A stretch of 64,000 nt of DNA from Paralichthys olivaceus (Eukaryota > Chordata > Actinopteri > Pleuronectiformes > Paralichthyidae): contig NC_091105.1 of the NCBI RefSeq assembly GCF_024713975.1, forward strand, positions 24,945,439 to 25,009,438, written 5' to 3'. Shown here in pieces: positions 32,201 to 60,083 of the stretch; position 1 is the stretch's first letter; each line of letters begins with the position of its first letter. Both the position numbers and the translations under genes were made by a program. A model generated the notes under the pieces. That model did no database searches, was not told the origin of the DNA, and was given only the letters and a program-made list of their open reading frames with translations.

Positions 32201-33217
32201 GGGAGAGCAGGACTAGGTTGTGGTCTGATCTGCCCAGTGGTGGCAGGGCAGTGGAGCTGTATGCATCCTTAACATTTGCATACAGCAGGTCCAAAGTCTT
32301 ATTGTCACGGGTGGCACATTTTACAAACTGGAAGAATGTTGGGAGTGTGGATGAGAGGGAAGCATGGTTAAAGTCGCCTGTGATGACGATGAAGGCCCCG
32401 GGGTGTTGTGTCTGTAATCCTGCAGTTACAGTGTGGATGACGTCACACGCTGCTGCTGCGTTCCCAGATGGAGGAATATAAACAGTGATGGCGAAAACAC
32501 TGGTAAACTCCCTCGGCAAATAATATGGACGAAGTCCGACTGCGACGAGCTCGATGTCCGGGTTGCATACACGCTGTTTGACGGTGACGTACCCGGGGTG
32601 ACACCACCCTCCTTTCCTCTTGCCGGTCGCGGTGGTGTCTCTGTCGGCTCGAACCGTCTGGAAGCCGGGAATGGTGACGTTGGAGTCCGGTATCTGCTCG
32701 TGCAGCCACGTTTCCGTGAGACACACAATACTGGACTCCCTGTACTCCCTCTGCGTTCTGATGAGCGCTTCCAGTTCGTCCACTTTATTTGCCAGCGACC
32801 TCACGTTTCAAGTGATAACTGCAGGGATGAAGGGCTTAAACTTCCTCTTCGCCATCCTCCGTTTAAGCCCCGCTCTACAGCCCCGCCGTCTCTTCTTTAG
32901 CTCCTCCGGGATGGTGGGTCTCTCTCCGGCCAAGAGGGGGGTGTGCCTCAGGGCCATCAGCTGGTCGCGGGTGTAAACAATGCCGGCGTGTGTTGCCGGC
33001 ATGCTTCCAGTGATCCGAAGAGACCGAAGTGCGGTTAAAAGTGATAAAAAGTGTCCAATCGGTTGCAAAAGCATCTCGTCTTTGTGCGGCACGAAGATGC
33101 ACAGAGCAGTGCAAAAATAAATATAAAAAACAAACAGCAAACGTAATAAAAACACAAAAGACCGACAGTAATACACGGAGCTGCTACGACAGGCTCCCGT
33201 TAGTACGGCGCCATCTT
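29284..33217 (-). mobile_element. Rex1/CR1-like LINE, near full length, one nonsense codon
   Basis: The 5' end (GATGGCGCC, reverse sense, at about 33209-33217) and the GATA-type 3' end at 29284-29330 are both present. A 944-residue frame (32804-29970) holds the endonuclease (CLTETWL, VITGDFNH, GRSDHNLV), a proline-rich linker, RT (DFSSAFNTIQ, GAPQGTVLSPFLF, FSDDTAIVGC) and the C-terminal domain ending near FIPTAIRLYNSS. Upstream in the same frame is the basic N-terminal segment (LLAGERPTIPEEL), separated only by TGA at complement 32808-32810, where the copy at 2.8 kb has a glycine codon. All catalytic motifs look intact, so it is a comparatively young insertion. Confidence 0.88.
29460..29800. 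repeat. AT-rich microsatellite region in the LINE 3' UTR
   Basis: Mixed (TA)n, (AAT)n, (AGT)n and ATATGAT-type simple repeats fill the 3' UTR of the minus-strand LINE. It is absent from the sister copy at 26.6-28.6 kb. Confidence 0.75.
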
Positions 33218-37660: not shown

Positions 37661-38285
37661 CTCAGTGCATTAAGTGTCTGAAATGTACAAATGCAATCAG
37701 TGTAGAGGCATCTAGGAGGGCTGATTCTGGAATAGTGGCTGTGTTGCAGCCTTTAGTGTTTAAATAACTATTCTGGAGGTGAAAGAAGCTGCTGACAAAT
37801 TACATTTCCTGATCATGTTGGAACCAGCAACCTAAAAGGCAAAAATAATTTTAGACCACCATCAAAAACTTTTAAAACCGAATTCTGTATACTTAATATA
37901 ACAATAAGTTAATAACTATTAGCTTACCAAAACATGATCATGGACTACAGCTAACACTAATTTAAAATCAATTTTTTTTTCTATATAGCGTCTATAGATG
38001 GAAAATAGCATAAGTAAAAATATAAATTAAATATAAAATAAAACTAGAAAATCTCTCCTGCCGAGACATTTTGAATGGGTGCCTTGTGCTCGTCGCCGAT
38101 GCTCGCGTACAGAGAGACACATATTATCCAGGTGTACATGAGAGACGGTGAGAGCGAAAGACATTTCCAAATGTTGCTTGATTTTTTAATCATGCATGAA
38201 TCCAGGTCGGTGACAGAGAGACTGTACCAATTTCAGAGACAGAGAGAAACCATGTTATAAGGTCTGATCACCATCCATGGCATTT
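37661..38285. other. Spacer, nothing recognised
   Basis: AT-rich sequence without supported exons or element ends precedes the minisatellite. Confidence 0.3.
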
Positions 38286-38289
38286 AATC

Positions 38290-39590
38290 TTAAAAATTCA
38301 GCCACTTTCAGGCTTCCTTGGGAACATTCTGTAACTATTTGTGGATTTTATTTCGAAAATCCAGACTCCTTCAAGCATCCTGACAACATCCCGCAACTAC
38401 CTGGGGTTTTTATTTTGAAAGTCCAGACTTTTTTGGGCTTCTTGGGAACATCCCTTAACCATCTGGGGGATTTTATTTTGAAAATCCAGCATCTCTTAGG
38501 CTTCCTGGGAACATTCTGTAACTATTTGGGAGTTTTATTTTGAAAATCCAGCGTCTTTCAGGCTTCCTGGAAACATTCTGTAACTATTTGGGGGTTTTAT
38601 TTTGAAAATCCAGCGTTTTTCAGGCTTCCTGGGAACATTCTGTAACTATTTGGGCATTTTATTTTGAAAGTCCAGCTTTTTTTAGGCTTCTTAGAAACAT
38701 TCCTTAACAATCTGGGGATTTTATTTTGAAATTCTAGCTTTTTTTTACTCTTCCTAGGAACATCCTGTAACTATTTGGGAGTTTTATTTTGAAAATCCAC
38801 TATTTTTCCAGCTCCCTGGGAACATCCTGTAACCATCTGGGGGTTATATTTTGAAAAACCAGGCTCTGTACAGCTTTCCTGGTAGCATTCTATTACTATG
38901 GGGGGGCTTATTTCAAAATAAAGGCTCTGTACAGACTTCCTGGTAACATTCTATTACAATGGGGGGGGCTATTTTCAAAATAAAGGCTCATTACCTGTTT
39001 CCTGGTAATATCCAGTTACTATTGGGGGGGTGGGGGGGCTTATTTATACACTTAAACATAAGCTCTGTACATGTTTCCTTGTAATATGGGGGGGTGGGGG
39101 GGCTTATTTTCAAAATAAAGGCTTTGTACAGTCTTCCTTGTGACATTCTATTACAATGGGGGGGGGCTTATTTTCAAAATAAAGGCTCATTACATGTTTC
39201 CTGGTAATATCCAATTACTATGGGGGGGGGGGGGGGGGGGGGTTATTTTCAAAATAAAGGCCCATTACATGTTTTCTGGTAATATCCAGTTACTATTGGG
39301 GGGGTGGGGGGGCTTATTTATACGCTGAAACATAGGCTCTGTACATGTTTCCTTGTAATATGGGGGGATGGGGGGGGGTTATTTTCAAAATAAAGGCTTT
39401 GTACAGACTTCCTTGCGACATTCTATTACAATGGGGGAGGGTTGTTTATTTTTATATTCAAAATAAAGGCTTTGTACAGACTTCCTAGTAACATTCAGTT
39501 ATAATGGGGGGGGGGCTTATTTTCAAAATAAAGGCCCATTACATGTTCCTGGTAACATCCAGTTACTATGGGGGGGGTGGGGGGGCTTAT
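38290..39590. repeat. Two-part minisatellite, ~63-bp unit, with long G runs
   Basis: The first part (about 38290-38880) is roughly nine copies of a ~63-bp unit: TTTTATTTTGAAAATCCAG, a variable T-rich stretch, AGGCTTCCTGGGAACATTCT, GTAACTATTTGGGGG. The second part (about 38880-39590) keeps the order of words but is changed: TTATTTTCAAAATAAAGGC, a TACA-containing stretch, TTCCTGGTAA, and G runs of 7 or more. The longest run is 21 G at 39222-39242. Short ORFs here only reflect the repeat. Confidence 0.9.
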
Positions 39591-39634
39591 TTTTACTTTT
39601 ATTTAAATGCTCCAAAATTTAGCAAAAACCACCA

Positions 39635-39715
39635 CCCTCACCCGGATTTGAACCCAGACTCACGTAACATGATCCAAGTGCCGCAATATATTTTTGGCCA
39701 CTGAGTGTAATTTGG
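39635..39715 (-). repeat. tRNA-like (SINE-head-like) sequence
   Basis: On the minus strand GGTTCAAATCC fits a Pol III B box, and ACTCAGTGG about 55 bp upstream fits an A box. The AGTGGCCAAAAATATATT stretch recurs (minus sense) at about 39811-39830 and, slightly changed, at 49600-49619. No complete cloverleaf was found, so this is a decayed tRNA-derived repeat at best. Confidence 0.4.
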
Positions 39716-39719
39716 GGGC

Positions 39720-40369
39720 GCTGTTTCCCCGTTTCGACAGCGGAACCGGAAATCCCTGCTCCTTAACTTTTCTCATTCATTCTCTATGGTAGTCTCTTAA
39801 CGCTACGGATGTAATATATTTTTGGCCACTTGTGAACCAAGTGTATTTTATTGGCGCTGTTTCCCCGTTTTCACATCTCTGTATTCAAAGAAGAGCATTG
39901 GCGGCAACAGTAAAGTACAGTATCAAGTTTTTTTTTAGACGTTATCATCAAGTTTGATCAACACAACTCAATTGTAAGTCAAGCTATTTTCTTCAAGTTG
40001 TCATTCCATGTTTCTCAGTGGTATTGGTGGAGGTGTCTTAGTACAGTGGTGTTACATACTGTATGTGGGTTTTTACATCCTGACCTCTTACAGTCTGTAC
40101 ATATCTGGAGGCCTTTTTAGTCTCTCACTGACACTTATCCAGAACCTTTCACTCTTTTCTCTAGATTCACAACTTTTCTTACTGTGTTTTACTGAAGCTG
40201 TTAATTGTTTATACCATCATTGCGTGAATTCTTTGCATGAAAGATTTAGGTGGAAATATTTCTGTTTCTTTTGGAAGTGATAGAATATAAGTTCTTAAAC
40301 TGTAATGACTTATATTGCTGATAGATGGATGGATGTTTACCCAAGTATAAGAATTATTATTTAAAATAC
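39720..40369. other. Spacer with GGCGCTGTTTCCCC duplicates
   Basis: GGCGCTGTTTCCCCGTTT occurs near 39718 and again near 39854, each after a TTTTTGGCCACT word, so the tRNA-like motif is locally duplicated. Nothing else is recognised. Confidence 0.4.
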
Positions 40370-40565
40370 CTCAGAATGTATCCTTTAAATTTACATCAGG
40401 AGTCTCCTCTCTCGATGCCGGCTACATTTTACACGCACATGTTTTTACAGTAGCCCAAAATGGAAAAAAAAAATCATATTTTGAGTTTTTTAAAGCAAAC
40501 ATAGGTTCTTCTACATGTTTAGAAGAGGAGGCTGAGGTGATGGGTATCCAGCTGCACTTTCTGTG
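40370..40565. repeat. Decayed relative of the MITE at 24.8 kb
   Basis: TTTTTACAGTAGCCCAAA, TTTTGAGTTTTTTAAAGC, AGGTTCTTCTACATG and GTATCCAGCTGCA follow the same order as related words at 24960-25090. The ends are lost. Confidence 0.5.
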
Positions 40566-41017
40566 CATGAAAATATTTCTTTCAGATTATTCTCAGATTT
40601 CAGATTTTGTCATTACAAAAGTTCACTTTGTGACTCTGTTATGGAAAAATTTCCACTACTGACCTTTCTGAGACACTATCCTCTGTACTGCGGGAATTGT
40701 CTTCTCAAGTCTTTCACTCGTGTATCAGATTACTTTGATGCTTGATCAACTGTTCCTGTCTGTTAGAAGTTAAACCTATCTGGTCAGGTGAGAAAACAGC
40801 TAAGCATACAGTCTACTGAGGGGATGTAACACCAAATGTCCTTGGGGGGGTTTATTGCTTTTCCTGTTGCCTGTTGACCAGCAATCCTTAAGTGTAATCT
40901 TCAATGGGTTTTTCATTACTTTAACACCCTCAACTACTTCGGGAATACAGAGAGGGGGCTTCCTCTTCTGCATAATAAAGCACACTTTGATCTATTGTTT
41001 AGGAAAACTGTTTTAAG

Positions 41018-41223
41018 TGTCATATGTCTGTCCCCTCACTTGTCATGTGACCAAAGTCATCCCCTTTCCTCACTCCTCCCATCCTAAATGTATAAAACCT
41101 CAGTCACTCACTTTGTTTAGTCAGGGCAACATTGAGTCTTATACTTTCTGTATCTGTTAATTGTTTTCCTTCCTTGCGCAAAGACATCAAGCTACGGTCT
41201 GTGGTTCTTTTTTTACTCTCTCA
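41018..41223 (+). promoter_or_regulatory. Candidate short LTR / promoter upstream of the 41-47 kb gene
   Basis: The segment begins TGTCATATG and ends CTCTCTCA, with TTAAG on both sides (41013-41017 and 41224-41228). A TATA box (TATAAAA) lies at 41091-41097. The next clear feature downstream is the splice acceptor at about 41336, just before the first start codon. It could be a solo LTR that now supplies the promoter, or a native promoter that matches an LTR pattern by chance. Confidence 0.45.
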
Positions 41224-41342
41224 TTAAGATATTAGAACAAAATATTCACAACACTGTGTGGATGTGCAAATTGTGTAAATATTCCTATTATATATTTGTA
41301 AATATTACTCTAAAATCTGTATTGTACTTTGGACAGGTGATA

Positions 41343-44300
41343 ATGAAGAAGACATTGAATATCTTCCCTGGACAACAGACAGTATCCTTCAGGAAGGGTC
41401 CATCTGGACATCTGCGACAGGATCCCAGTGATGAGGCCATGAGGATCAAAAACAATCCCTCCCTTCAGGACAAGTCTGCCCCTCAGAGTCACCAGCTCGT
41501 GAGGACCAACGCCCTCACTCTTGTCTTTCAGCGAGGAGGGGATGTATCAGACCGCGTGGAGGTGATGGGGGAGTATTTGCTCCAGTTTGGCAAATACAAG
41601 GGAAAATCCTTCAAGTGGCTCCTGGAGAATGACGTCGGCTACACCATCTTCCTGATGAAAAAGGTTGAAGAGGAGGAGAGAGAGGGGACCTTCAATCCCC
41701 AGGGACATGCCAAGGAGAGCCTCCTGTCATTTCTGGACTATGCAAGTAGCTTCCAGGACATCATGGACCTGCGGGCGTACCTGTCCTCCAGGAAGCCTTC
41801 CTCACCAGTGGCATCTGAGGGGGACAACATCGTGGGCTTTGGAGCCAGGGCCAGAGACACTTGGAGGAAGATCTGGGAGACAAGAGCTGACGGCTATGCT
41901 GCATTTATCCTGGGTGTAAAGTGCGTCAAGAACAGTAAAATGTACAACTTGCAGCAGTACCTTCTGAGCCAACAAAGGGCTGAGACCTGTCCACCCCCTG
42001 CAGAAGTCCCCACAACATTAGCCTCCTCCACCTCGCTGGCATCTACCACACTTGGTGAATATGCACACTAGAAATGGATATATATTTTTTATGTCTGCAT
42101 TAAATGTACCTAACAATTGATTAATGTGACCGTTCAATCTCCTAGTGATGGAAGAGGACGTTGAGCTGGAGAGAGACATGCGACATCTATCACCATCTAA
42201 ATATAACATTGAACCAAGTAGGTGGATCCAGTGTATTAAACAGTTTGACATTTAAAATGACTTGAATCAAAAGTTTATTTATTGATGATAACAGTCTCAC
42301 ATCCTTTGTGCTTTCAGGGCCTTCAGCAGTACTTCCCAAAGTCACAGATGAATCTCAAACAACAGGTTTTTCTCCCCCTGAGTGGAATAAGAGTGCTGTG
42401 TTGTCCGCACACTTGACCATCCATGAATTTCCCATTGGTCAACGCGTGTGTTGTTTCGGCCATGTTCTGGCCTGTTCTGATGTGTGCCTTTTTATCTCGT
42501 TCGTTGTTCTGGCCATGTTCCGGCCTGTTCTGATGCCTGTGTTCTCCCATGAATTTAAGAAACACATGTGTCAGCAACGGTGGTAAGTGTTTTTTGATTT
42601 CTGCATGCTTTTTTTCGACTGTTATTCAAGCATTTGGCATGTGTGAAACAGTAGATTTGATATTCAATCTTAGATACAGCTTGGCATGCAACATCTTTGA
42701 TAAACAGATGGTTTGTTTTCTATTATATTGTATTGTAGCTCAATGTTGTAATGCCGCTCCCGCCGTGCATGTAAAGACAGATTGACGGTGTCAGAAAAAT
42801 GACGCAAAGGTTTCTTTACAGCACCAAGAGCTATGGCAACAACTGCCACTGTGTCCAGATGTGGCGAGACGGTTGAACCCACTCGGATTGCTTCAGAAAA
42901 AGGTGATGGTATTTATTTACCTCTTACTTAAAAGAACCCTGAATGTGTACAAATTGTGAGATTGTTTTATTTTATTTTATTTTTTCATTTGATTCCATCG
43001 CCACAGCCAAAACCACCTTGCCAGTCCCTCCTCAGCTCCTTGCTATTGCTGCTCAACTTGGAATAGAACAAACACCTAATGTGCAGAGCCAAAGTAAGAA
43101 ACAAATTAACATTGTCAGACCTAGTATTAATAGTGTCCTGTAATGTTATCTAATAATGACATCGGGTAACTGTTAAATTGAATTATCTTTTGATTTCAAA
43201 GCACATGGACAGCTTGTGCCGCAGGGATCATCTGTAGAGCTCGAGAATAAAGCGGATCCATCTCTGTCGGAAGGTAAATATTCAATTAATATTTTGAAAG
43301 AGAAGAGCTCAATCGTGTGTTCATTTTTTTTATGTGTTCATTTTTTTGTATTCCTTGTCCTAGATGCGTCATCGCATCATGTGGATCCTGTGGAGGCACA
43401 AGGGGACATCGTCCTTGATGAAGGTAGGATTTTGTTGTCACATTAATTGCATTACATTTAAAATTTGCTCTCTGTCTGTGTTTTTACTGTAGTTTTTTGT
43501 GCTTGTGTTTTTTAGCACCTCTGCAAACTCCTGCGCCCCAGCCCAGGCAGCCATCAGCCTCTGTCCCAGGCTACGATCAGGATGTTGCGCGGTGGAACTG
43601 CTCCCACCAGCAGAAAGTATGGATGAAGTGTGAGATGGAGGCGTTAGGTCTATGGCCAGGATCGCGTCCAGTACGTCACCTGATGAACATGCTGTCCCTG
43701 TGGCGTTATCCACCTCAGCCTGAGCTCATAGACACCATCTCTGAACTGCCCTCACCACATTACTTCCATCTTCATCCATTTTTCATTTGGAAGCCAGAGC
43801 ATGCAATCATGGACAGGGTGAGGAACAACTACAACTTGCCTTGCCTTCATGGTTGTACAAATCCACTGGTAGTTTCTAGTGGCATTGGAAGGCCAAGGGT
43901 CATAGTAGGCATCACTGGCCAGTACTACATTTTAGCTTCACGACTCACATGTAAGGTTTGTAAGAAGTACTGGCACGCGGATAAGCCCCAATGGCTGGAG
44001 ATGTTACCACAGCGCATCAGCAGCATTGTGCCAGCATTCCTGACATTTAAAAAAGCCATCTGTAAATCTGTCATGGATGAGCTCAGACGCAGTGGCAGAT
44101 CAGCGGACGATATGAGCAAGCAGCTGACAGAGGTGCTTCACCTTAAATATGAAAGAGCTCATTTGGCCTACCTCTCGAGTGTACAGAACATTAGGGATGG
44201 TGAGGCAGGGGTCTATGGTCAGAAAACCATCACTGGGCTTCTTAGACAGGTGGACACTCCTGCTCAGTTTGGAGATTATGCGGATGGCGATGGCTGGTGT

Positions 44301-46737
44301 GGTGTGTCCATTTCCTCACACTATCTGGTCGACTGCCTGGTTCAGGAGTATAGGAGACAGGGACACCTTCTCACCCTTCTGCTGCAAGGGACTTTTGGAC
44401 GGGCTTTAAGGGCAGATCACACCCGCAAGGTGGCAAGGAAGGTGGTGTTGTCATCAGGCACCATGTCCTCCTATTCCATCATGAATGAGAACTGGATGAT
44501 CCTGAGCTGGGGGATGCTGCAGTCTGAGTGTGACCGGTCCCTGAATCCATTGTACGAGGGTCTGGATCGACGCTACACTGCAGCAGGAGTGGAGAAGGCA
44601 AACTACCAGTGGGTGGACAGGTAAACAGGAGTGGTTCAGATTGTCAGCAAAATATTACATTTCTATATTTAAAGTATATTTCGGTGTTAGGATGATACAA
44701 TTTTCAAATTTGCTCAAATTTCAAATTCAGGTTTAACTGTTTCGCTGACACATTTTTTTCTGCAAGCAAACATTCACAGTCATTCTTTTAAGTTGTATAA
44801 CATTATTTCTTTTTAATGTGTCAGGGACTGCTGTGCACCATTCAAGATCCTGGACCCGCGTCTCCATGAACACCTCCTATGGGACAGCTGGAGGACCACG
44901 GCAGCAATAGAGGCAGAGGCAACATCCGGGAACCTGGCAAACAGCTGTGCATCAAGACACAAGTTTAACAAAGACATAACAATCAAGTTAGACGTGTTTC
45001 ACTGCAAGCTGCATTCTTTGTTGTGGATCAGAGGGACATGGAAAAGTTGAAGGAGGCATACACGGCATGTGGAATCTCTCCTGCTAATCCCACCAAGCAG
45101 CATGTGAGAGAGCACTGCAGGACGAAGGTGCCACAGCCGAGAGAACTGCTGCGGAGAGTAGAAGATGTTCTGCATCATTTCCACTCGATGAAAGATGTCA
45201 ACGATGTGCTTCTCTTTAAGCCCTCCATGTTAAAGGCATGGAAGATTCAGCGTGTCCACATATTGAGAGGCTGTCTGAGCGACCCTGAGGTGGAGGATGG
45301 AATCCTCTACAGGTACGGTGGAAGTTTGCAGCTCAACTATAACAAAAGCAAAAAAGCTGCCGTACCTGTTTGGATCCCTGTGAGAGGCACTTCTCAGCAG
45401 GAGGGCTTCCACGCACACCAAGCCCGGTGGGTCACGGGAACTCGGGTTTCGAATGAACTTTTCCAGGCTCAGGCCATGACCGGGATGGTGCGCTGGAACT
45501 TCCAGAGGCTTGTGGACCTAAAACAGCCGGGTGTACAACTTCCAGCTGCGTTCGACCCACTGCTCATTGCACAGCTGAACTTAGCCTCTGTGAGTGTCAC
45601 AGGAAGGGCAAAATATCCCACGCTACTCCTCTCAAGCGAGGACACTGGGGAGAGGTTTGGACTGGAGTATGTGGAGCCTGGCTGCTGCCCTGTTGCCTTG
45701 GACTGGGACATGGACAAAGAGCATCACATCAGCTCAATTCCTGTTGCCATGGAGATACAGCCACCCATCCAGCTTGAGATGGACCACAGTCCTGCTGCTG
45801 ACATTGGCACAGACCCTCAGGTAATCCAGATTGGTCACTAATAGTGAATCATGAACTGACTCACTGACTGACTCACTGACTCATAAACCATTATGCTTAA
45901 TACTGTATGTATTTCAGGAACTCAGTGGCAGTGCTCAGGACCCCCCGATTGGAGCAGTGCCAATTCTGTCCTCACAGCCGTGCATGGAAGCAGGTGTCCA
46001 GACCATGGAACAGACGGGTGTTAAAGCAGAAAGTCAATCTTCGATGGATACAGGTAATTCAAATTACTCATCTGCGATGCCTCATATCCCACTTCGTTTC
46101 ACAGATTTCATTTAATGATGCAGTTGCATAACAATTTTATTCAATTAAAGTTTTTCACAATATGAATCACCTGAATTGTAGCAAAAGAGCAACACTTTCA
46201 ACGTATTCTTTATTTTTACAGACCTGCCAGGGGTTACGCCTTTACCCGTATCCTCCTCTCCAAGGGCCAAACGCACTGGACCTGTTAAAACAGGTGGCCT
46301 CATCCAGGTTCTTGACCACAGTCGGTGGACAGAACCCATGAGGACCGCCATTGATGAACTGCTGATAAAGCACCATGGAGCTAAAGACATTCTGAGGCGA
46401 GTGGATGTGGACTATGCTGCCATGGTGCAGAGGGCGTGCAGGGACCCCAACAGCCTCCTCCATCCCACCACGTGGCAACACATATCAAGATATGTGAAAC
46501 ATGTTGCCAAATTAAAAAACACCAGCTCCTGTCTCAACACCAGCTCAGAGAGGGCATCAGAAACAAGGAAGTTGTGGCACAGTTTGACTACAGGCAGCCA
46601 GACAGTCAGTGTGCCCGTCGCAATTTTACCCCCTGCCCCTATCAACCCTCCCCCCGTTGGTCTCACTCAGGATGACACACTTACCAGGGCTGCAGTGGCA
46701 AGGATTGTGGCAGTGGTTCTACAGCAGCAGCAGCAGC

Positions 46738-46791
<54 letters not shown>

Positions 46792-47324
46792 CGCAGACGC
46801 AGAGGAAATTAACCAGGAACTGCTTAGCCTGTGGCCAGCCAAAGTCCCGCTTCCTTGGCGATGGCTCTTCTGTTCATTTTTACTATCAATCGCCATCTGC
46901 TAATTATTTTTACTGCTCCACAAGAGTCTTCAAGATGTATGCCGAGGAAGGGCTCAAAGAATCCAGAATGTCATTCCAAGACTTTGCTGCTTCTCCATAT
47001 TTCCAGCGGGAACTTGATGCTGCCAAGAAGAGGGCTGCAGAGTGCAAAAGGGTCAGAGAGGAGAGGAAAAAAAGAAGCGCCACAGAGCCTCTGCCATCCG
47101 GTCGCCTGTGCAGGTTTTGTCACCAGCCTCTAAAGCAGGGCCCTAACAGCCCTCACGTCCACACCTGCTTCCCTGGAGTACAAGGGAAATATATCTACTG
47201 CCCCTCCAGAGTTTTCTCTTTCTTCAAGGCACAGGGCATGGTCAAGGAGATGACCTGGAGCGAGTTCCAAGCTTCCCAATGGTTTGAGGCTGAACGAAAT
47301 AGATGGATGGTGCAAAAAAGATGA
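41343..47324 (+). CDS. Multi-exon transposase-like gene of an uncharacterised fish family
   Basis: Eleven coding exons with GT-AG sites: 41343-42054, 42146-42217, 42318-42365, 42822-42902, 43007-43093, 43202-43273, 43364-43423, 43516-44620, 44825-45820, 45918-46053 and 46222-47324. The N-terminal exon has QFGKYKGKSFKWLL and a related GFGARARDTWRKIW segment. Exon 8 has a cysteine cluster (CLHGC, CKVCKKYW). Exons 8-9 look like an RNase H-type core: VDRDCC, IKLDVFHC and SQQEGFH may supply D, D and E. The last exon has 23 glutamines and two CxxC...H...C modules. The frame is lost near 45004 and resumes by 45005-45023 (LQAAFFVVDQRDM), so roughly 20 codons plus a frameshift are missing and this copy may be a pseudogene. 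I recall similar fish proteins with a DUF6729-like domain, but this is from memory. Host gene, domesticated transposase or live transposon cannot be told apart here. Confidence 0.65.
46722..46790 (+). repeat. CAG/CAA repeat encoding 23 glutamines
   Basis: CAG blocks at both ends flank an uninterrupted run of CAA codons, all in the frame of the last exon of the 41-47 kb gene. Mixed CAG/CAA usage makes slippage less likely than in a pure CAG tract. Confidence 0.95.
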
Positions 47325-47378
47325 CAATGACAGTTGTTTATGTTTATGTTTATTTTAATTGTCAATTCTGTATAAAGA

Positions 47379-47384
47379 ATAAAA
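47379..47384 (+). promoter_or_regulatory. Polyadenylation signal AATAAA
   Basis: It lies 55 bp after the stop codon of the 41-47 kb gene, a suitable distance for its 3' end. It argues that the gene has, or had, its own transcript. Confidence 0.6.
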
Positions 47385-47399
47385 ACTATAAAAGCCAGA

Positions 47400-48164
47400 A
47401 CACATTTGACTTTGTGTTTTATTTCAATTTCATTCCAAACTGAGCAATTGATAACTGTTATGTTTAACATTACGCTGCCATTTATATATATTTAGTTTGT
47501 GTTTTATTTGTGTTATTATTTTTGTGAGCATGTTAGCCTTGCTTCAGAACTGTATTAAGTATTTAATGAATTAAAAACAAGTGTACCATAGAATGGAAAT
47601 GAGCCCAACAAACAGATGAAATAGAATTAAATACCATTTTAATTGTATAAAGTTCAAAACATTTGATCAAATCAAGAAAACATAAACTATATTTGCTTCT
47701 AGTGGGAATAAAACCCACTCCCCTGTCTTACAAGGCTTCTGCAGCGCGTTCAGCAGCACCGGAGAGACGGGACACAGCATGCTGCAATCTGATTGGCTGT
47801 CAGTCCTCTACGGCTATACGCGACTGGCCTCCGCGTGACAGGCGGAGATACTGTCCACTATACTAACGAGGATTGGTGCAATATCTACATCGACAGGACG
47901 GTCACGCTGTTCTCTTAAGGATAAGTCATTGTGTGTTGTGGCCTTGTACAGTGATCTGGAATTTGAAAAGTAATTTCCACTGAGGCCTAACATTGATAAG
48001 TTTGTGTTCCCTGTATTTACAAAGACTGATCTGTAGGATATCTGGGATTCCAACCACATCTTTCAAGTTTCCTGGTAATCCATCCAGCGGTATTTTGCAT
48101 AATCCTGCAAAATAACAGGTAAACAAATGAGACAAATAAATCTACTTTTATCTTTTTAATTTCC
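47400..48164. other. Spacer, nothing firmly recognised
   Basis: Near 47700-47750 the sequence GGGAATAAAACCCACT could be a decayed Pol III T-arm, but no cloverleaf can be built. Otherwise no feature is supported. Confidence 0.3.
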
Positions 48165-48358
48165 AACAGCCCCATCAATGAACAACAACATGAGCCACAT
48201 CTCAATGAGAGATCTTTAGAACACTCCTCCAGAGAAACCTTGTGTGGAGCCGGGCCTGGAGGAGCTGAGGAGGCTGAGCAGAGACCTCATGGCCATCCGT
48301 CTGCAGGTGGACAAACACTTCCAGAGCAGCAACACGTCAGAGGAATGGCAGATGATGT
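48165..48358 (+). pseudogene. Stranded exon resembling the cytoplasmic helix of a Cys-loop receptor (5-HT3-like)
   Basis: After an acceptor-like TTTCCAACAG the frame reads MSHISMRDL, an in-frame TAG, then EPGLEELRRLSRDLMAIRLQ, then VDKHFQSSNTSEEWQM. The second part resembles the amphipathic helix just before the fourth membrane segment of 5-HT3/nicotinic-type receptors. The expected membrane segment does not follow, and the frame stops at TAA (or splices at GTAATTC). No other receptor exon was found in the window. It is best read as a pseudogene fragment. Confidence 0.45.
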
Positions 48359-48359
48359 A

Positions 48360-49380
48360 ATTCGTATACGGCGTGATTCACATCAGGACGACAAGAAGAG
48401 AGTTTTAATCACTGTGGGTGTACCAGGAGCTCACACACTGGATTCTGAGACTAGCTACTGCTTGATTTACTGTGTCTGAGTGATAGAACAGGATTTTCTG
48501 TATTTTTATAAACTTTTTAGTAAGTTTGGACTAAAGCTTTGGAGAAGAAAATGGAAAAGGTTTTTCAGTCCACCTCAGTGACTGTGTCCATGCTGTGTTT
48601 CACTTACATTATTATTATATGATCAACTCGCTGATTTATACAAACAGTGTGAGAACCAGTAAACAGAAACGTGTAAATCACTCTACCATCTCTCTCCAAA
48701 TTTGCATGTCTTTGAGCCCTTTGTGTGTGTGGGGGATTGTGGGTTAAACTGCGTGTATAAACAAATGAAAATGAGTGTAAAAAGAATTCCCCCTTGAGGG
48801 ATCCATAAAGTTTCAATTATTAATTATTAAATCTCTTTTTAAAAAGTCAAACAAAAACCTGAGCCGTGACTTGAACCTTGAAATAAACTTAAAGTTATTG
48901 TGTGTTTTGCTCTTTAAATGAAATTAAGCATTTTCTCTTGTTTAAATTTCAAATCAAAATGTTTACTACAGCCTGTTTACACTAATTTATTAACTGGCTT
49001 GATGCTACTGTTGTTGATGATTATCATTAAAAACTAAGTTGATCTATGTTGGATTATATCCACTGGATGGCATCATTGGTCAACTGGTGCGTGCATGAAG
49101 TAGAAAGTAATGCTGCCGGTATCCACCTCTCAAGGGTAGGCTTTGCTCCAGATTGGGAGCCTATAATAACTGTTGTCAACCATGAATGTTGTCAAAGTGG
49201 TTCCTCGATAACAACAATTTCCTCACACGCAGTTTTGAATCTCTCTTCTGAAATCTCAAAGGACTCCTAGTAGCAAATTCTTTGCAAATAGATTTGGCTC
49301 CTCTCAGAAAACGGCTTATGGGACTCTGGTTGGGTTGGTTATGGTGTATTTAACAGTGTCAGGCCCTGGGGATTCACTGT
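48360..49380. other. AT-rich spacer, nothing recognised
   Basis: No exon, RNA gene or element end could be supported. Confidence 0.3.
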
Positions 49381-49386
49381 TGGTCA

Positions 49387-49457
49387 GTTTCTGTAGTGTA
49401 GTGGTTATCACCTTTGCTTAACACGTGAAAGGTCCTCAGCGTGAAACTGGAAAAATA
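49387..49457 (+). tRNA. tRNA-Val(AAC) pseudogene
   Basis: GTTTCTGTAGTGTAGTGGTT followed by ATCACC matches the 5' half of vertebrate tRNA-Val, with the A box intact. The anticodon stem-loop reads TTTGC-TTAACAC-GTGAA with anticodon AAC. The variable region AGGTC is present, but the T arm (CCTCAGCGTGAAACTGG) has lost the GGTTCGA B box, and the acceptor 3' strand is changed. It is likely a non-functional copy. Confidence 0.75.
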
Positions 49458-49480
49458 AAATGAAACAAAAAAAGGTCTAT

Positions 49481-49554
49481 TGCATTAGCCGGGAATCGAA
49501 CCCGGGCCTCCCGTGCAGCCTTCGAGAAAAGTTTAGCTAAACCGACCTGAACGC
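49481..49554 (-). tRNA. tRNA-Gly-like pseudogene
   Basis: On the minus strand the 3' half, GGGAGGCCCGGGTTCGATTC followed by CCGGCTAATGCA, is nearly identical to vertebrate tRNA-Gly, with a perfect B box and T arm. The 5' acceptor strand GCGTT pairs with the 3' end, but the D arm and anticodon arm are altered and no clean 7-nt anticodon loop can be drawn. It lies 23 bp from the tRNA-Val copy on the opposite strand. Confidence 0.65.
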
Positions 49555-49596
49555 CTTTTAACATGCATTTCAATGATAGTGCTGAACCACAGTGTG

Positions 49597-49650
49597 GATG
49601 TAATATTCTTTTGGCCACTCTTCTTTTCGGGCTGTGGCGCTGTTCCGACT
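49597..49650. repeat. Third copy of the GGATGTAATAT...TTGGCCACT motif
   Basis: GGATGTAATATTCTTTTGGC followed by CACT and, 16 bp later, GGCGCTGTTCC repeats the arrangement seen at about 39806-39870. Here too it lies close to tRNA-like sequence. Confidence 0.5.
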
Positions 49651-49659
49651 TTTTCTATA

Positions 49660-50399
49660 GACTCGCGGTCCTCCGATATTTCTTTTTTTCCTTCAGGCAA
49701 ACCTCTAACGGCAGACGGTCATAAAAGCGTGCATATTCACTGTCTATTGTTGATGTCATTACGTGTTCTTACAGGGGCTGTGCATCATTCAAACATTCAA
49801 GTCATTTTCATTCGTCAAAGGTAAGACACGTTGTTTTATTTTCATAAAAGTTAGCCTGCTTTCTGATAACATTAGTTCGCTGCTGCTGCTAATTCGCTTG
49901 GTTGATGCGATAGAACTGCCCGGAATTAAGTTTGGGGTAATTATGGACTAAATAATGAATGAACATCATGCTATTTGTTGAGATTGTGTTTGGTTTTTAG
50001 GTTGTTGCTTAATATTATATATTCGTCAGCGCGGTATTGACAGTAATGTCGTGTCAGCAGTTGCCTAGCACCACTCGCAGGGTAACGCAGAAGATTTGTG
50101 GTGAAATAACACGTCAAAGTATGAATGGACATGATCGTTTTATATATTTATATGCATAGTTTTCATGACGTGACGTTAAATAGTCTTGTCAGTCCGTTTA
50201 TATCAATCTTTTGTTGATAAGTTAACTATAGCCTACCTCAGCATTGCCCACTTGCTAAGAGACTGACGCTACAAACGTGTGTTGAAATTACGTGATAACA
50301 TGATTGTATTTCATATTTTTGTGTATCTGGTTTTGATGTCGTGATGTTAACTCATCTTTACACCATGGATCTGTTACTCCTAAGATGTCTGACTAGTTA
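49660..50399. other. Spacer upstream of the L2, nothing recognised
   Basis: No coding or RNA signal is supported. It may include 5' parts of the L2 that are too decayed to read. Confidence 0.3.
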
Positions 50400-53300
50400 G
50401 GCTACATATTTTCTCTGGTTTTCTCTGGACCCCTGCCTAATGTTTCCAGCGATGACACGTTTAGCCGCACGTCATCCTTTCACCGCTGGCTGTCGAGGTG
50501 GTGTCCAGATAACAACGTGGGCTTCGTTAACAATTGGAAAACTTTTTGGGGGAAACCTGGTCTGATTAGGAGAGACTGTATTCATCCCACTTGGGATGGA
50601 GCAGCTCTCATATCTAGAAACATGACGACGTTTGTTAGAAAGTCCACACCGTGACAATCCAGAGTTGAGACCAGGAGGCAGAGTCGCAGTCTTACACGCT
50701 TCTCTGCGCTTCTATTCAAACAGTCACCATCACAATGTCCTATAGAAACTGTGTCTGCCACCCGACCACCTAATTTCTTTAAATCAAAAGTACACAGGAG
50801 AGGGGTGATACACTCAAACTTAGTCAAAATTAACACAGCCAAAACATCAGCTAAAAACACAACTATAAAATGCGCTTTATTAAATATAAGGTCACTAAAT
50901 TCAAAATCTTTACTTATAAATGATCTCATTACTGATCATCAAATAGATTTATTATGCTTAACCGAAACTTGGCTACAAGACGGAGAATATGTAGGTTTAA
51001 ATGAAGCGACGCCCCCAACCCACTCTAATACTCACATTCCTCGGAACACAGGCAGAGGTGGAGGGGTTGCAGCAATCTTTAAATCTGATCTATCTATCAA
51101 CCCCCGACCAAAAGAGAGTTATAACTCTTTCGAAAATCTTAGAACCAGCCTCGTCCACCCAAGCCTGACGTCACATAAACCAATTAATATAGTCATCATA
51201 TATCGTCCACCCGCCCCTTACTCTGAATTCTCTGAATTTTTATCAGAACTAGTCCTTAAAACAGATCAAATCATTATAGCCGGTGATTTCAATATTCATG
51301 TAGATGTTGCCAATGACAGATTTAGTTCAGCATTTAAATCACTAATAGACTCGATTGGTTTCACTCAACATGTGAATCAACCGACCCACTGCCTGAATCA
51401 CACTCTTGATCTTGTCCTGACATATGGCATTGACATAGAAAATGTAAAAATATTCCAACAGAACTTCCACCTAGCCTGGAAGAATAGCCTTATAAATTAC
51501 AAAAAAGCACTTAGAAATGCCTGAACCTCTTATTATTCATTACTAATAGAAGAAAATAGGAACAACCCCAGGTTCCTCTTCAGCACTGTAGCCAGGCTGA
51601 CAGAAAGTCACACCTCTACTGACCCATCTATTCCTCTAGATCTGAGAAGCAATGACTTCATGAGCTTCTTCGCTAATAAAATTACAACCATCAGGGATAA
51701 AATCCACGACCTCCTCCCAGTGAATAACACGGATTCATTGTCTGGTCCTGAAACCATAGCACCAGATTTATGTCTAAACAAATTTTACTCTATTGATCTT
51801 CCTGAACTGACCTCGTTAGTTTCATCATCTAAACCAACTACTTGTCAGCTGGACTCTGTTCCAACTAGACTTTTTAAAGAAGTCCTCCCCCTAATTGACA
51901 GTTCCATTTTAAATCAGATTAATATGTCTTTGCTAACCGGCTACGTACCACAGGCTTTTAAGGTAGCCGTTATTAAACCTCTGCTTAAAAAGCCTACGCT
52001 TGATCCAGAGGTTTTAGCTAACTATAGACCCATATCCAACCTGCCCTTCATTTCCAAAATCCTAGAAAAAGCCGTTGCTAACCAGCTGTGTGGTTACTTA
52101 GATAGTAACGGTTTATTGGAAAAATTTCAGTCAGGATTTAGAACCCATCACAGCACAGAAACGGCACTATTGAAAGTCACCAATGACCTTCTGATGGCAT
52201 CAGATGATGGACTTGTCTCTGTCCTCGTCTTGTTGGACCTTAGTGCAGCCTTCGACACAATAGATCATAAGATTCTGCTACAGAGATTAGAACAACATAT
52301 AGGAATTAAAGGAACAGCACTACACTGGTTTAAATCATATTTATCAGATAGATTCCAATTTGTTAATGTTAACAATGAGTCCTCCATGCACATGCAAGTT
52401 AATCATGGAGTTCCACAAGGTTCTGTCCTTGGACCAATACTGTTCACCCTATATATGCTCCCCTTAGGCAACATTATCAGACAGCACCACATACAATTCC
52501 ACTGCTATGCAGACGACACCCAATTGTATATTTCCATGAAGCATGATGAATTTAATCGCCTAGTTCAACTTCAGGAATGTCTCAAAGATATCAAGGCGTG
52601 GATGACCCAAAATGTTCTACTTTTAAACTCAGACAAAACTGAGGTTGTTGTAATTGGCCCTAAACATCTCAGAGAAACACTGTCTGACCAGATAGTCACT
52701 TTGGATGGTGTCAGTCTGGCTTCCAGCTCCACTGTGAGGAACCTTGGAGTGTTGTTCGACCAAGACATGTCATTTGACCCCCATATTAAACTAGTGTCTA
52801 GGACGGCTTTCTTCCATCTGCGCAATATTACCAAAATTAGAAACATCCTGTCTAAGCAGGATGCTGAAAAACTAGTCCACGCGTTTGTAACCTCTAGATT
52901 ATATTACTGCAACTCTATATTAGCAGGATGCTCCATGAAGACTGTTAAAAGTCTCCAGTTGGTCCAAAATGCTGCAGCACGAGTGCTGACAGGAACTAGA
53001 AGGAGAGATCATATCACTCCTGTCTTAGCTTCCTTACATTGGCTCCCGGTAAAATTTAGAATAGAATTCAAGATCCTGCTCCTCACTTTTAAAGCCCTCA
53101 ACAATCACGCCCCCTCATATATCAAAGAGCTGATAACACCTTATTATCCAAGTAGATCACTTCGTTCCCAAAACACAGGCTCTTTAGTGGTTCCAAGAGT
53201 CTGTAAGAGTAGAGCAGGAGGTAGAACATTTAGCTATCAGGCTCCTCTCCTGTGGAACCAGCTCCCACTCTGGGTTCGGGAGGCAGACACTGTCCCAGCA

Positions 53301-54072
53301 TTTAAAGTAAAACTAAAAACCTTCCTCTTTGACAAAGCCTATAGTTAGTTCTGGATCAGGTGAGTCCTGAACCATCCCTTAGTTGTGCTGCTATAGGTTT
53401 AGACTGCTGGGGGAACTCCCATCATGCACTGAGGACTTCTTCACTTCCCTCTGTCTCTCTGTCTCTCTGCCCCCCCACACCTGTTTATTTATTTATTTAT
53501 TAGTTTTAACATGTCATCATGTCAAAGTGTCACTTTGTCCTCCCATAGTCCCTCTGGCTCTTCTCTCTATCTCGTTTCAGATAACTCCGGCACCGGGACT
53601 ACAGGACCACAACGACCACCATCACCATTGTCTTCATTTATTACAATAACTCAGCAATTCATTAATATATCTAGTCATGTTGTAGATCTATACATTGTTA
53701 TTGTTATGGTTAGCCTTGATTTTGATGGTGCCAAATTGTTACCGGTCTCTCTCTCTCCACCTCATCTCTCTTCTCTCCCCCGCTTTCCACCCATCTCTCC
53801 TTTCCTCCCCCCTTACTTTTCTTTCCTCACCCCAACCGGTCGAGGCAGATGACCGCCCACATTGAGGCTGGTTCTGCCAGAGGTTTCTCCCTGTTAATGA
53901 GGGAGTTTTTCCTCTCCACAGTCGCCTGTGCTTGCTCATTGTGGGAACTGTTGGGTTTCTCTATGTTAATATTGTTTTAATGTCTTGACCTTTAAATGTA
54001 AAGTGCCTTGAGATAATGTAAATTATGAATTGGCGCTATATAAATAAAATTTAATTGAATTGAATTGAATTA
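50400..54072 (+). mobile_element. L2 LINE with ORF1 esterase remnant and long ORF2
   Basis: At 50455-50650 the frame reads WCPDNNVGFVNNWKTFWGK then DCIHPTWDGAALISRNM, which resembles the end of the SGNH-esterase-like ORF1 of fish L2/CR1 elements, including a DxxH motif. ORF2 runs from 50751 to 53348 in one frame, broken only by TGA at 51522-51524. The endonuclease keeps [10 protein letters not shown] and IAGDFNIH, but an in-frame deletion after ENVKIFQQN removes its C-terminal part, including the SDH motif. RT (51660-53348) is open, with [22 protein letters not shown] and [11 protein letters not shown] (YADD at 52505-52516). The 3' UTR ends in repeated GAATT. Its own endonuclease should be dead. 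Confidence 0.9.
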
Positions 54073-57000
54073 AATCACCCAGTCTTCTCACACCTAAAGA
54101 AGCTCAGGGCTGGGGTAGCCTTTCTTCAGGAAACCCACTTGCATGATTCTGACCAATGGCGATTAGGTAAATGCTGGGCAGGACAGTTTTTCCATTCTAA
54201 CTTTAAAGGAAAGCCAGGGGTGTGGCCATCCCTGTTGATAGAAACATTCCTTTTGAGCCCTGCAACATTACAGCAGATAAATTTGGACATATTACCCATG
54301 TTTCAGGCAAGCTTTACAATAAGCCAGTGGTCTTGGCCAATGTGCATGCGCCTAATGTTGATGACGTACAGTTTTTCAATAGATTTTTCTCTGAACTCCC
54401 TGATCTAAATTCTAAATTTTTAATTCTCGGGGGAGATTTCAATTGTTATTTGGATGCAGTATTAGACCGCTCCTCACCTAAACCTACCACTCTCAGCAAA
54501 TCCGCCAGTTACATTAAAGCATCTTACTTTGGAGTAAAAGTAACTATTATGAGCACGGTGGAAAAACTGGCAAAGTCCTGGCTACTCAGCTGCGTGGGTT
54601 GAGAATGAACCAATTTATTGCTGGAGTACAGACTGATAATGGATGTATAACATCTGACCAGAAAGAGATTAATGACAAGTTTAGAACTTTCTACTCAAAT
54701 TTATACTCTTCAGATTGTACAGCAGACTTTAATATTATGGAAAACTTCTTTAATAACCTTGACTCACCGTCCCTTTCTCAAGACCTGAGAAATAACCTGG
54801 ATGCGCCCATCACCCAGGAGGAAATTTCAGCAGCTATATCTTCTATGCAATCAGGTAAATCCCCTGGCCCAGATGGGCTTCCATCAAATTTCTTTTTAAA
54901 AAATTCTGCTGATCTAGTCCCCGTCCTGTGCTCAGTGTTCTCTGATTCCTTAAACTCAGGTGCACTCCCTCCCTCGTTCAATCAGGCCTGTATCTCCTTG
55001 TTGCTGAAAAAAGGCAAAGACCCACTAGATTGTGCTTCATACAGATCAATTTCATTGCTAAACACGGATGTAAAGATCCTCGCCAAAGTTTTGGCCCACA
55101 GACTGGAGGATATCCTTCCTTCTGTAATATCGCCAGATCAAACTGGTTTTATTAAAAGACGCCATTCGTTTTACAATATTCGTCGGCTATTTAATATTCT
55201 GTACTCCCCCAAACATGTGGATTCAGAGTGCCTTGCCTCTATGGATGCTGAGAAGGCATTTGATATAGTAGAGTGGAACTATCTTTTTTTTACACTTGGA
55301 AAATTTGGTTTCGGTTCTGTCTTTTTGTCCTGGATCAAAACATTGTATAAATATCCTTCAGCCTCTGTTTTGACCAATAGTCATTACTCTGAATACTTTG
55401 ATTTACACCGTGGGACCCGGCAGGGTTGCCCACTAAGCCCACTCCTTTTCGGAATTGCCATTGAGCCTCTTGCAATTGCCTTACGTAGCAATGGGCGGGT
55501 ACAGGGAATATGGAGGGGAGGAGTCGAACATAAAGTCTCGCTGTATGCAGGCGACCTACTTCTGTTTGTTTCAAAACCAACCACTTCTCTACCAGAAGCC
55601 CTCACGATCTTAGATAATTTCAGTCAATTTAAATAAAAGCGAACCATTCCCAATTAATAAGGAAGCTCTTAAACTTAACTATACCCATCTCCCATTGAAG
55701 GTGGTGAAAGATCAATTTAATTACCTCGGAATTTGTGTCACCAGAGAATTCAAAAACTTGTTGAAATCAAATTTTCTCACTTTATTTGATCAGGCAAAAC
55801 AGATTTTGTCTCTGTCCCTTATTGGAAGAATAAACTCGATTAAAATGACATTGCTTCCAAAGTTCCTCTACTTGTTTCAATGTCTTCCTGTTCTCATCCC
55901 CAAATAATTTTTTAGAGCCCTTGACTCATTATTGATATATTACATTTGGAATGGTAAACACCCTCGGCTGCGGAAAGCATTTCTCCAAAGATCCAAGCAG
56001 GCAGGGGGAATGGCTCTGCCTAATTTCCAGTACTACTACTGGGCAGTGAATATTGGGTGTTTGTTATTTTGGAGACATTTCCATCTCGAACCCACTTCCC
56101 CGGCCTGGGTTACAATGGAGGTCTGTGCCAGTAACCCTGTTTCCTTACCTGCCCTCTTAGGTGCCGCACTTCCACTTGCTTCGGATATTCCCAAGAGCAA
56201 CCCAGTAGTTAAACACTCCCTGTTAATCTGGGGCCAATTTAGGAAAAGTTTTGGACTACAGCTTTTTTCACTTAAAAGCCCAATTGCTGCTAACCATCTA
56301 TTTGCTCCTTCAATGGCTGATGGCGCATTCAATATTTGGCACAGAAAAGGTTTGAGATGCTTTGAAGATCTATACATTGATAATTGTTTTGCGAGCTTTT
56401 CTCAACTAACAGAAACTTTTTGGCATTGCCAAAACCCACTTTTTTAGATTTTTACAAATTAGGACTTTTATACAGCGCTTAACGACCCAATTTCCTTATA
56501 AACCCCCAGTTACCCCTGTTGATATATTTCTTTCTGTTAACCCCACCTCTAAAGGTATCATGTCCAATCTATATAACCTTATTTCCAAACTGCACTGCTC
56601 TTCAGTGGCAACTATAAGAACTGCTTGGGAGCAAGACCTAAATTACACCTTTACAGAGGACACATGGGACTCGGTGTTTGATCGGATACACTCCTCTTCT
56701 ATGTGTTCTTGACATGCACTTTTACAATTTAAAGTAGTGCATCGAATCCACATATCAAAAACCAAATTAGCGCGAATGTATCCTGATGTCGACCCTACAT
56801 GTGATAAATGTAAAGGCGCACCTGCCTCACTCTACCACATGTATTGGACATGTCCCTCTTTAGGTCACTTTTGGACATTGGTTATCCATGCGTTATCAGA
56901 TATCCTCCATCATCGAATTGAGCCAAATCCCTTGACTGGTATTTTTGGCATTGCTCCAGATTTGAACTTACATAAAGCTATGCTCAACTTTCTAGCTTTT

Positions 57001-58350: not shown

Positions 58351-60071
58351 ATCAATTATTATTAAATTATTGATGACCATATACGACAAAGAATGACATA
58401 ATGTGCCACACTCACGGCTGATGAAGGGCTGGATGCTGAGGGTCAATGAATTGTGTGAGATGTGTCAAATCTGTTGGTTATTATTTTTGTTCATTATCAT
58501 ATGTAAACAAATGTAGGCAAGATTTTTAAAATATATTTTGCATTGAAGAAATAATTGTCTGCATTCAGATTGAGCTCTATATCATCAAATCAGTAATGAT
58601 TGGATGACTAATGTGCATAACAAAGACATAAATATTACATAAACCAATCCTTTTAGCCCATTATTAAGTGGAACATAGTAAATTAAATTAAATGGAAACA
58701 GTCAAACACATCTGCAGAAGCATTGACAATTGTATTGATTTAATATACACACATACAAATATTAATAATATGCATTTTCATTAATATCTTATGCCACTGA
58801 CAGTATTCGACCAACACTCACAAAGCACTGCTCAATAGCCATGAATCTATGAATGAAATTAAAATATGAAACCTTTATCTGCAGTGTAAAATCACATTGA
58901 ACACATGAACAACACACAACAATACAATACTTAATCACAGAATGTCAGTGCCTGTGTTGTGCATCAATAGCTCTCACACACTAAAATCACATAGATAAAC
59001 ATGTAAATAAACATCCTCTCAATTATTTCGCATCAGTTTTAGAAACCAGCCAGCATCAAGGTCCACACTTTCCTGACACACACATACACACACATTTTTT
59101 ACAAACACGAATCCAAACATGCTGCAGAAATGCACAATTCCCCATGCTCTCAGTGACACACAATGCAACAATTAGTTTGCAAAAATGTACCCACTTCCCG
59201 GTGATGGTAAAGTAGTTGACTACAGCTGCTCTACAGTGTTTTCCATTTTCATTATTTTATTTTCATCCTACTACATTTATTTTATAATGCTTGTGCTGTT
59301 AAGATTTCACACTATGTACCTACTGACACATAGACTTATATTTTGTTGATGCTTATGTGCATATCTACATACTTAATTTAACACTTCATAGCATATTTCA
59401 TTAATTCCCTCAAGCATATCACACATTATCTAATGGATCTGAAATCCTTGATTGATTTTCTTCATTTGGTCAAGAGACTAACCTCAGTCTCAGACAGGGA
59501 TCACTGTAGCTATCAGTGCAACATGTGTATAGTAGCCGCCTAGCTCAGGATTTGTGTATGCTCCGCAGTGATGTGCATCATATAGAAGTCAACCTGATAA
59601 ACCCCCAGGGGCCGCCATGTTGTGCAGTTATGAAAACTGCCATGGAAACGGTTGCTTCTTAAAAATCTTCTTTGATGATTGATGTGGGGGCAACCATCAA
59701 AGGGATTGCTGGCCTGCAAATCCTTATCAAATCCAATCAAAGAACCAAAAACTCTAGACATTAAAGGATATTTCTTTGGTCCTCTGAACTACCAAACATA
59801 AATAACAAGTTCCCTTGCTTCAAGTTATTAGCTTGTGAAAATAACAGACCGTCAACTGAGAAGACCACAGTCCTCATTAGTGAAGACAACAATCCTGCCT
59901 ACGGAGACAACCGCTGATTTGTTCAGTAAAAATTCATCAAGAAGACACTGCTCTCATAACTACAAATCCCCCTTTACCAAAATGGACATCCTAGTAAAAA
60001 AATTTTTTTTTTAGAAATGTATGTTCAGGTTCAGGTCTTTTAATAATGAATTCCATGTTTCCATTTTTCAG
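58351..60071. other. AT-rich spacer, nothing recognised
   Basis: No exon, RNA gene or element end was recognised. Upstream exons of the coiled-coil gene may lie here, but none can be supported. Confidence 0.3.
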
Positions 60072-60083
60072 ACATGTGGAACA

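Follow-up and report, generated by a model that had tools for sequence, protein, structure and literature searches.

A gene in the Paralichthys olivaceus genome as the very probable remnant of a Dada transposon targeting tRNA genes

The predicted 11-exon gene at positions 41343-47324 of a 64,000-nucleotide stretch of the Paralichthys olivaceus genome (the window, C13:24945439-25009438 of an assembly of 588 Mb in 25 contigs; coordinates below are window positions unless a contig is named) is very probably (about 0.95) a decayed Dada DNA transposon belonging to the tD/tV kind, which targets transfer RNA (tRNA) genes, an identity matched by published descriptions rather than deposited sequences. 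The gene has numerous sequence relatives and many genomic copies with a common right terminus; in the window this terminus abuts half of a tRNA-Asp gene, sister copies are inserted at the same site, the transposase core is predicted to fold like RNase H, and the window copy is damaged. Dada was defined in 2013 by a DDE transposase with a DxxH motif and CCCC and CCHC zinc motifs, 6-7 bp duplications in small nuclear RNA (snRNA) and tRNA genes, short sub-terminal and no terminal inverted repeats, and distant similarity to MuDR, hAT, P, Kolobok and IS256 (PMC3706591), and was surveyed in fish in 2022 (PMC8869645). A preliminary description of the window had suggested a poorly described transposon superfamily with introns; the superfamily and its introns stand, but according to these two papers it is already described.

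A search of the genome with the exon 8 protein gave 26 matches, of which seven reach 95-100% (C13, which is the window itself, C14, two on C10, two on C5 and one on C4), and BLASTN with the 8145-bp window element found nine sister loci of 88-99.7% identity over 2854-8145 bp. The right end could be located because copies were compared with one another: the seven compared share a boundary at base 47829. The bounds first proposed, 41343-47324, thus hold for the coding part, and the element itself spans about 39685 to 47829. Near the left ends of sister copies lies GCGTATAG and near their right ends its inverse complement CTATACGC, giving short sub-terminal inverted repeats as in Dada. A search for inverted repeats around the gene found none standing out, and the shared terminal inverted repeats recommended earlier as a search target are not a Dada feature as described in PMC3706591. 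The same genome contains a second lineage, on C24 and C12, with 62-63% identity in the exon 8 protein; in a tree of 46 rows it sits in a different clade from the window and C10 copies, which group with Siganus, Chaenocephalus, Gadus, Perca and Zoarces (seven rows, 100/100). With 7994 candidates scored, a first protein search recovered 133 proteins; the named ones among the 120 matches listed are from ray-finned fish. A second, seeded with a distant match, found 11 proteins, including one of the sea cucumber Holothuria leucospilota; a third, with query A3, returned P0124 (itself) and P0125 alone, and relatives were not found in a scan of viral contigs with query A1.

At its right end the window copy adjoins the 5' half of a tRNA-Asp gene split by the insertion (Table 1). 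The 3' half was not found within the window; its expected place is taken by a dispersed repeat that occurs no fewer than 40 times in the genome; of the 40 occurrences listed, 39 match over bases 1-93, with 96-97% identity. This repeat carries a tRNA-like 3' end motif, some of its places lie on C5 (2.41-2.42 Mb) at a spacing of about 4.2-4.5 kb, and a minisatellite with units of about 62-64 bp (38282-39596) is found directly left of the element. ARAGORN called no tRNA gene in the whole window. Rfam gave no match on the whole window at the gathering threshold, seven weak matches at E <= 10 on 33000-56000, none of them tRNA, snRNA or 5S, and no match on 47800-47900 and 39600-39720; half tRNA genes evidently escape scans of this type.

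Across the genome, a search with element sequence only as query yielded 15 right ends, the flanks of all of which were read. The query for left ends started with tRNA-Asp sequence, and the left-flank counts therefore favour Asp; 18 of the 30 left loci were read across the junction, the other 12 being internal-repeat matches. References for tRNA-Asp and tRNA-Glu were genes called by ARAGORN, the labels tRNA-Val and tRNA-Gly are tentative and were assigned by eye, and left and right ends were paired by place and orientation. Nine of the 15 right ends lie at tRNA halves: five at tRNA-Asp (43/43 in the window, 42/43 in L057 and L058, 41/43 in L059, and L060 by eye), two at tRNA-Glu (L056, 42/43; L009, 40/43) and two at what we take to be tRNA-Val (L055 and the decayed, truncated L061). 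Among the 18 left flanks, 11 were Asp, two Glu and two Val; one was the right end of a further Dada element (L036), one a tRNA-like sequence of no assigned kind, and one had none of these. Seven insertions are flanked on both sides by halves of one tRNA kind (Asp, three on C5 and one on C2; Val, one on C11; Glu, two on C14). Numbered along the tRNA gene, the insertion site is nucleotides 38-43, which belong to the 3' strand of the anticodon stem; the tRNA lies in antisense orientation relative to the transposase. Identical 6-bp flanks (CCCGCG, CCCGCG and TCCGCG) were seen in three of these seven pairs; both tRNA-Glu insertions have CCCGCG or TCCGCG on one side and CCCGGG on the other, and the single intact tRNA-Glu gene compared has CCTGGG at the hexamer site. 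This mismatch resembles what other Dada families show, a replacement on one side (PMC8869645). At L036 (G000:C16:23420637-23420739) a Dada left end stands right behind another Dada right end with the hexamer CCCGCG between them, a tandem insertion as reported for Dada-U1 of zebrafish (PMC3706591). In the window, 49481-50410 is a left-end piece of the second lineage (L015-L017), 98% identical to L017 over 49022-50410. The sequence adjoining this piece presumably represents a tRNA-Gly 3' half; L015 and L016 have tRNA-Asp-like 3' halves in the same place, and Rfam on 49440-49560 gave weak matches only (best, tmRNA, E 0.0016 over 18 nucleotides).

As assembled, the window copy is unable to encode the whole protein because exon 9 is out of frame. 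The frame, which the preliminary description had implied to be unbroken, changes between LDVFHC (44988-45005) and AAFFVVDQ (45008-45031), at a site that spans 24 residues in P0007 and other relatives. Two fixed anchors around the break are 64 bp apart in the window, compared with 134 bp in L010, L012, L013 and L014 and 116 bp in L009 (52 bp longer than the window); L012, L013 and L014 are probably duplicates of a single insertion. In L011 the BLAST pieces leave a gap of similar kind at this site (exact anchors gave no measure in L011 and L021). The left terminus is also missing, the element beginning at about 39685, and the near-full-length copies inspected each have lesions of their own (stretches absent, frame changes or stops). 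Conceivably, the copy is intact at its locus and the break in exon 9 an artefact of assembly, given that the lesion is known from one assembly. We consider this unlikely, as the left end is gone too and lesions are also carried by a near-identical relative on C24 (99.7%) and by the other near-full-length copies inspected.

The protein contains the modules that the preliminary description had named. Its four-cysteine cluster (CLHGC...CKVC; spacing 4/32/3 by count vs. 5/35/3 in published Dada) is enclosed by a Pfam DUF6729 match in exon 8 (E 6.8e-20), whereas DUF3820, another profile recommended for searching, had no match in the Pfam search of the window protein. The sole Pfam match of the FGKYKG module is ExoX-like_C (17.8 bits, under the cut-off of 26.5). 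Exon 11 encodes a polyglutamine (polyQ) tract of 23 codons and two CxxC...H...YC modules, corresponding to the zinc modules noted earlier, and the AATAAA expected after the gene is in place. Relatives share the FGKYKG, polyQ and tandem zinc modules (P0002 does, and P0121 and P0095 have an FGKYKG-type module as well), and none of these is peculiar to the window copy. The D/D/E RNase H-like core proposed at the outset is upheld as regards its predicted fold, but the triad VDRDCC/LDVFHC/QQEGFH was off by one motif: the first aspartate (D1) lies one motif earlier, in R[SA]DHT, and LDVFHC contains DxxH. The conserved acidic motifs are accordingly D in R[SA]DHT, D in VDRDCC (D2), DxxH in LDVFHC, of which DVFH is conserved among relatives, and E in GTSQQEGF/Y. 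In a motif-spacing table of 125 rows (124 proteins plus the window), D1-D2 was 67 residues in 69 rows, with a motif missing in 53, many of them fragments, and D2-E was 217 residues in 55 rows, with other values in 18 and a motif missing in 52, again many of them fragments; both spacings hold for most complete relatives. Structure prediction supports an RNase H-like fold of the transposase core. An AlphaFold model of P0003 (40 sequences; predicted local distance difference test score, pLDDT, 49.6) was set aside, and a PDB sequence search with query A1 gave no matches.

Several observations weigh against an assignment to Dada. A target duplication is not seen in the window copy, whose left end is gone, six of the 15 right ends lie outside tRNA (L054, L010, L023 and L012-L014, the last three with one common flank), and the hexamers are identical in only 3/7 paired insertions. 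With Foldseek alone no match was found at E <= 0.001, the best being the ISCth4 transposase (E 0.019), which we take to belong to the IS256 family. Many fish relatives have the C-terminal zinc pattern, but it was not found in the five non-fish ones (P0095, P0121-P0124). The zinc-motif spacings differ from those of published Dada-U6_DR, the exon 11 modules being unlike the C-x2-C-x9-H-x8-C of Dada, and D2-E is 217 residues here vs. 176 in Dada-U6_DR, the single published protein to compare. The last difference could suggest a separate, undescribed superfamily merely resembling Dada, as could the listing of DUF6729 in Pfam as a domain of unknown function and the failure of a literature search to find a paper naming it. 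We regard this as highly improbable, because the insertion site, antisense orientation, 6-bp flanks, DxxH motif, 11 exons, four-cysteine cluster and fish distribution match published accounts of Dada.

Just as improbable is a domesticated, Dada-derived host gene at a single orthologous locus, like dDada of carps and minnows. The gene is long, conserved and has many exons, and Dada domestication is on record (PMC8869645); according to that record, however, dDada has a mutated catalytic D and DxxQ, whereas D, D, DxxH and E are kept here. Moreover, the gene is multicopy, the window copy frame-broken, and sister copies lie within tRNA genes, which likewise speaks against the domesticated transposase of the preliminary description. 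The Kyakuja-Dileera-Zisupton (KDZ) group was rejected, five window pieces and six homologues having no Pfam KDZ match up to E = 1.

If the gene is a Dada transposase, the protein would act at the element ends through a D/D/E RNase H-type active site, as its superfamily suggests, and the element would be inserted at [C/T]CCGCG in the anticodon stem of a tRNA gene, with duplication of 6 bp; the cysteine/zinc modules probably recognise the element ends and/or the target. Catalysis, the assignment of particular modules to particular DNA and past mobility are what we infer. On balance we favour, with some reservation, the view that flounder Dada recognises a short word of the anticodon stem, [C/T]CCGCG plus a following TG, and not a particular kind of tRNA gene, and therefore passes between tRNA genes for Asp, Glu, Val and perhaps Gly with the old hexamer carried along on one side, that the two deep Dada lineages of this genome use the same site, and that DUF6729 is a zinc domain marking Dada transposases. 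The additions to what is known of Dada are modest: genomic copies in a flatfish, a tRNA-Glu target, and DUF6729 as a Dada domain. The main text of PMC8869645 does not name tRNA-Glu, and a literature search for Dada with tRNA-Glu or Paralichthys returned no title about Dada; the supplements of that paper or Repbase could still record a Glu target or a flatfish family. The identification turns a gene and a domain that both lacked an assigned function into a target-specific transposon, and more than 100 fish protein records with DUF6729 or a family match are probably Dada transposases or pieces thereof. A flatfish family with tRNA-Glu insertions may also help in studying how a DDE transposase chooses one site within tRNA genes.

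The gene model was rebuilt from the sequence, and its exons are predicted (Table 1). It agrees with the 11 exons joined by GT-AG introns described at first: all ten introns (90-456 bp) are GT-AG, and reading phase agrees across every junction. P0002 of Siganus canaliculatus (1407 amino acids) shows a 65% alignment to read-through residues 1-1492, and P0007, an annotated P. olivaceus protein, matches residues 282-896, which supports exons 4-9.

Table 1. Positions of the Dada copy, its predicted exons and its flanks in the window
Feature	Position	Strand	Remarks
Left flank, high-copy dispersed repeat instead of expected tRNA-Asp 3' half	39590..39682	.	
Dada element as present	39685..47829	+	Left terminus lost; right terminus 47829; BLASTN vs. 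nine sister loci
Exon 1	41343..42054	+	FGKYKG module 41586-41642; second GFG module 41835-41876
Exon 2	42146..42217	+	GT-AG, phase 1
Exon 3	42318..42365	+	GT-AG, phase 1; weakest support of all exons
Exon 4	42822..42902	+	Alignment to P0007 starts here
Exon 5	43007..43093	+	Gene model; P0007 alignment
Exon 6	43202..43273	+	Gene model; P0007 alignment
Exon 7	43364..43423	+	Gene model; P0007 alignment
Exon 8	43516..44620	+	DUF6729/four-cysteine cluster 43842-43961; D1 codon in RADHT 44412-44423; D2 codon in VD 44613-44618
Exon 9	44825..45820	+	DxxH motif LDVFHC 44988-45005; putative catalytic E in TSQQEGFH 45389-45412
Exon 9 frame break	45005..45008	+	70 bp fewer than L010, L012, L013, L014
Exon 10	45918..46053	+	Gene model
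Exon 11	46222..47324	+	polyQ 46722-46790; zinc-type modules 46821-46916, 47109-47201; stop 47322-47324
AATAAA polyadenylation signal	47378..47383	+	
Right end	47814..47829	+	CTATACGCGACTGGCC
5' half (nucleotides 1-43) of tRNA-Asp-GTC gene, split by insertion	47830..47872	-	43/43 vs. intact tRNA-Asp L015:7039-7110 (ARAGORN)

Reverse-transcriptase (RVT_1) open frames of long interspersed nuclear element (LINE)-type lie around the gene at 29970-32807 (-), 51525-53348 (+) and 54518-55636 (+), and the region is therefore transposon-rich. Tandem repeats of 126 and 117 bp (60099-60992) lie inside a 399-residue open frame (60015-61214), for which no convincing Pfam match was found. A short frame at 48123-48479, also without a Pfam match, is reminiscent of the terminal part of a gene for a ligand-gated ion channel.

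Among known systems, the ISCth4 transposase (PDB 6xgx, 6xg8, 6xgw) is the most distant, with about 10% identity at the Foldseek E-value given above. dDada, a domesticated Dada-U6 of Cyprinoidei, is alike in being Dada-derived coding sequence and differs in its conserved orthologous locus and mutated catalytic residues, as reported in PMC8869645, whereas here the family is multicopy, with residues kept and the copy broken. Dada-U6_DR, with 11 exons, 1402 amino acids and triad spacings of 68 and 176 residues (PMC3706591), is similar in exon number, length (about 1400 amino acids), DDE triad accompanied by DxxH, a four-cysteine motif towards the N terminus, and short sub-terminal without terminal inverted repeats, and both proteins have zinc-type sequence towards the C terminus, though of unlike spacing; it differs in targeting U6 snRNA genes, in its D2-E spacing and in having one C-terminal CCHC motif vs. 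two modules here. The closest likeness is to Dada-tD/tV, which PMC8869645 describes as inserting with loose specificity, and antisense to the tRNA, into the anticodon arm of genes for tRNA-Asp and tRNA-Val as well as those for Gly and Ala: the flounder element shares the anticodon-arm insertion and orientation, the Asp and Val targets and the loose specificity, and its 6-bp flanks, identical in three of seven pairs, recall the 6-bp duplications of that kind, at times replaced on one side. It differs from the families described there in also using tRNA-Glu, in the broken window copy without a left end, and in coming from a flatfish genome, Pleuronectiformes being covered in that paper from transcripts only and not listed in its Table 1.
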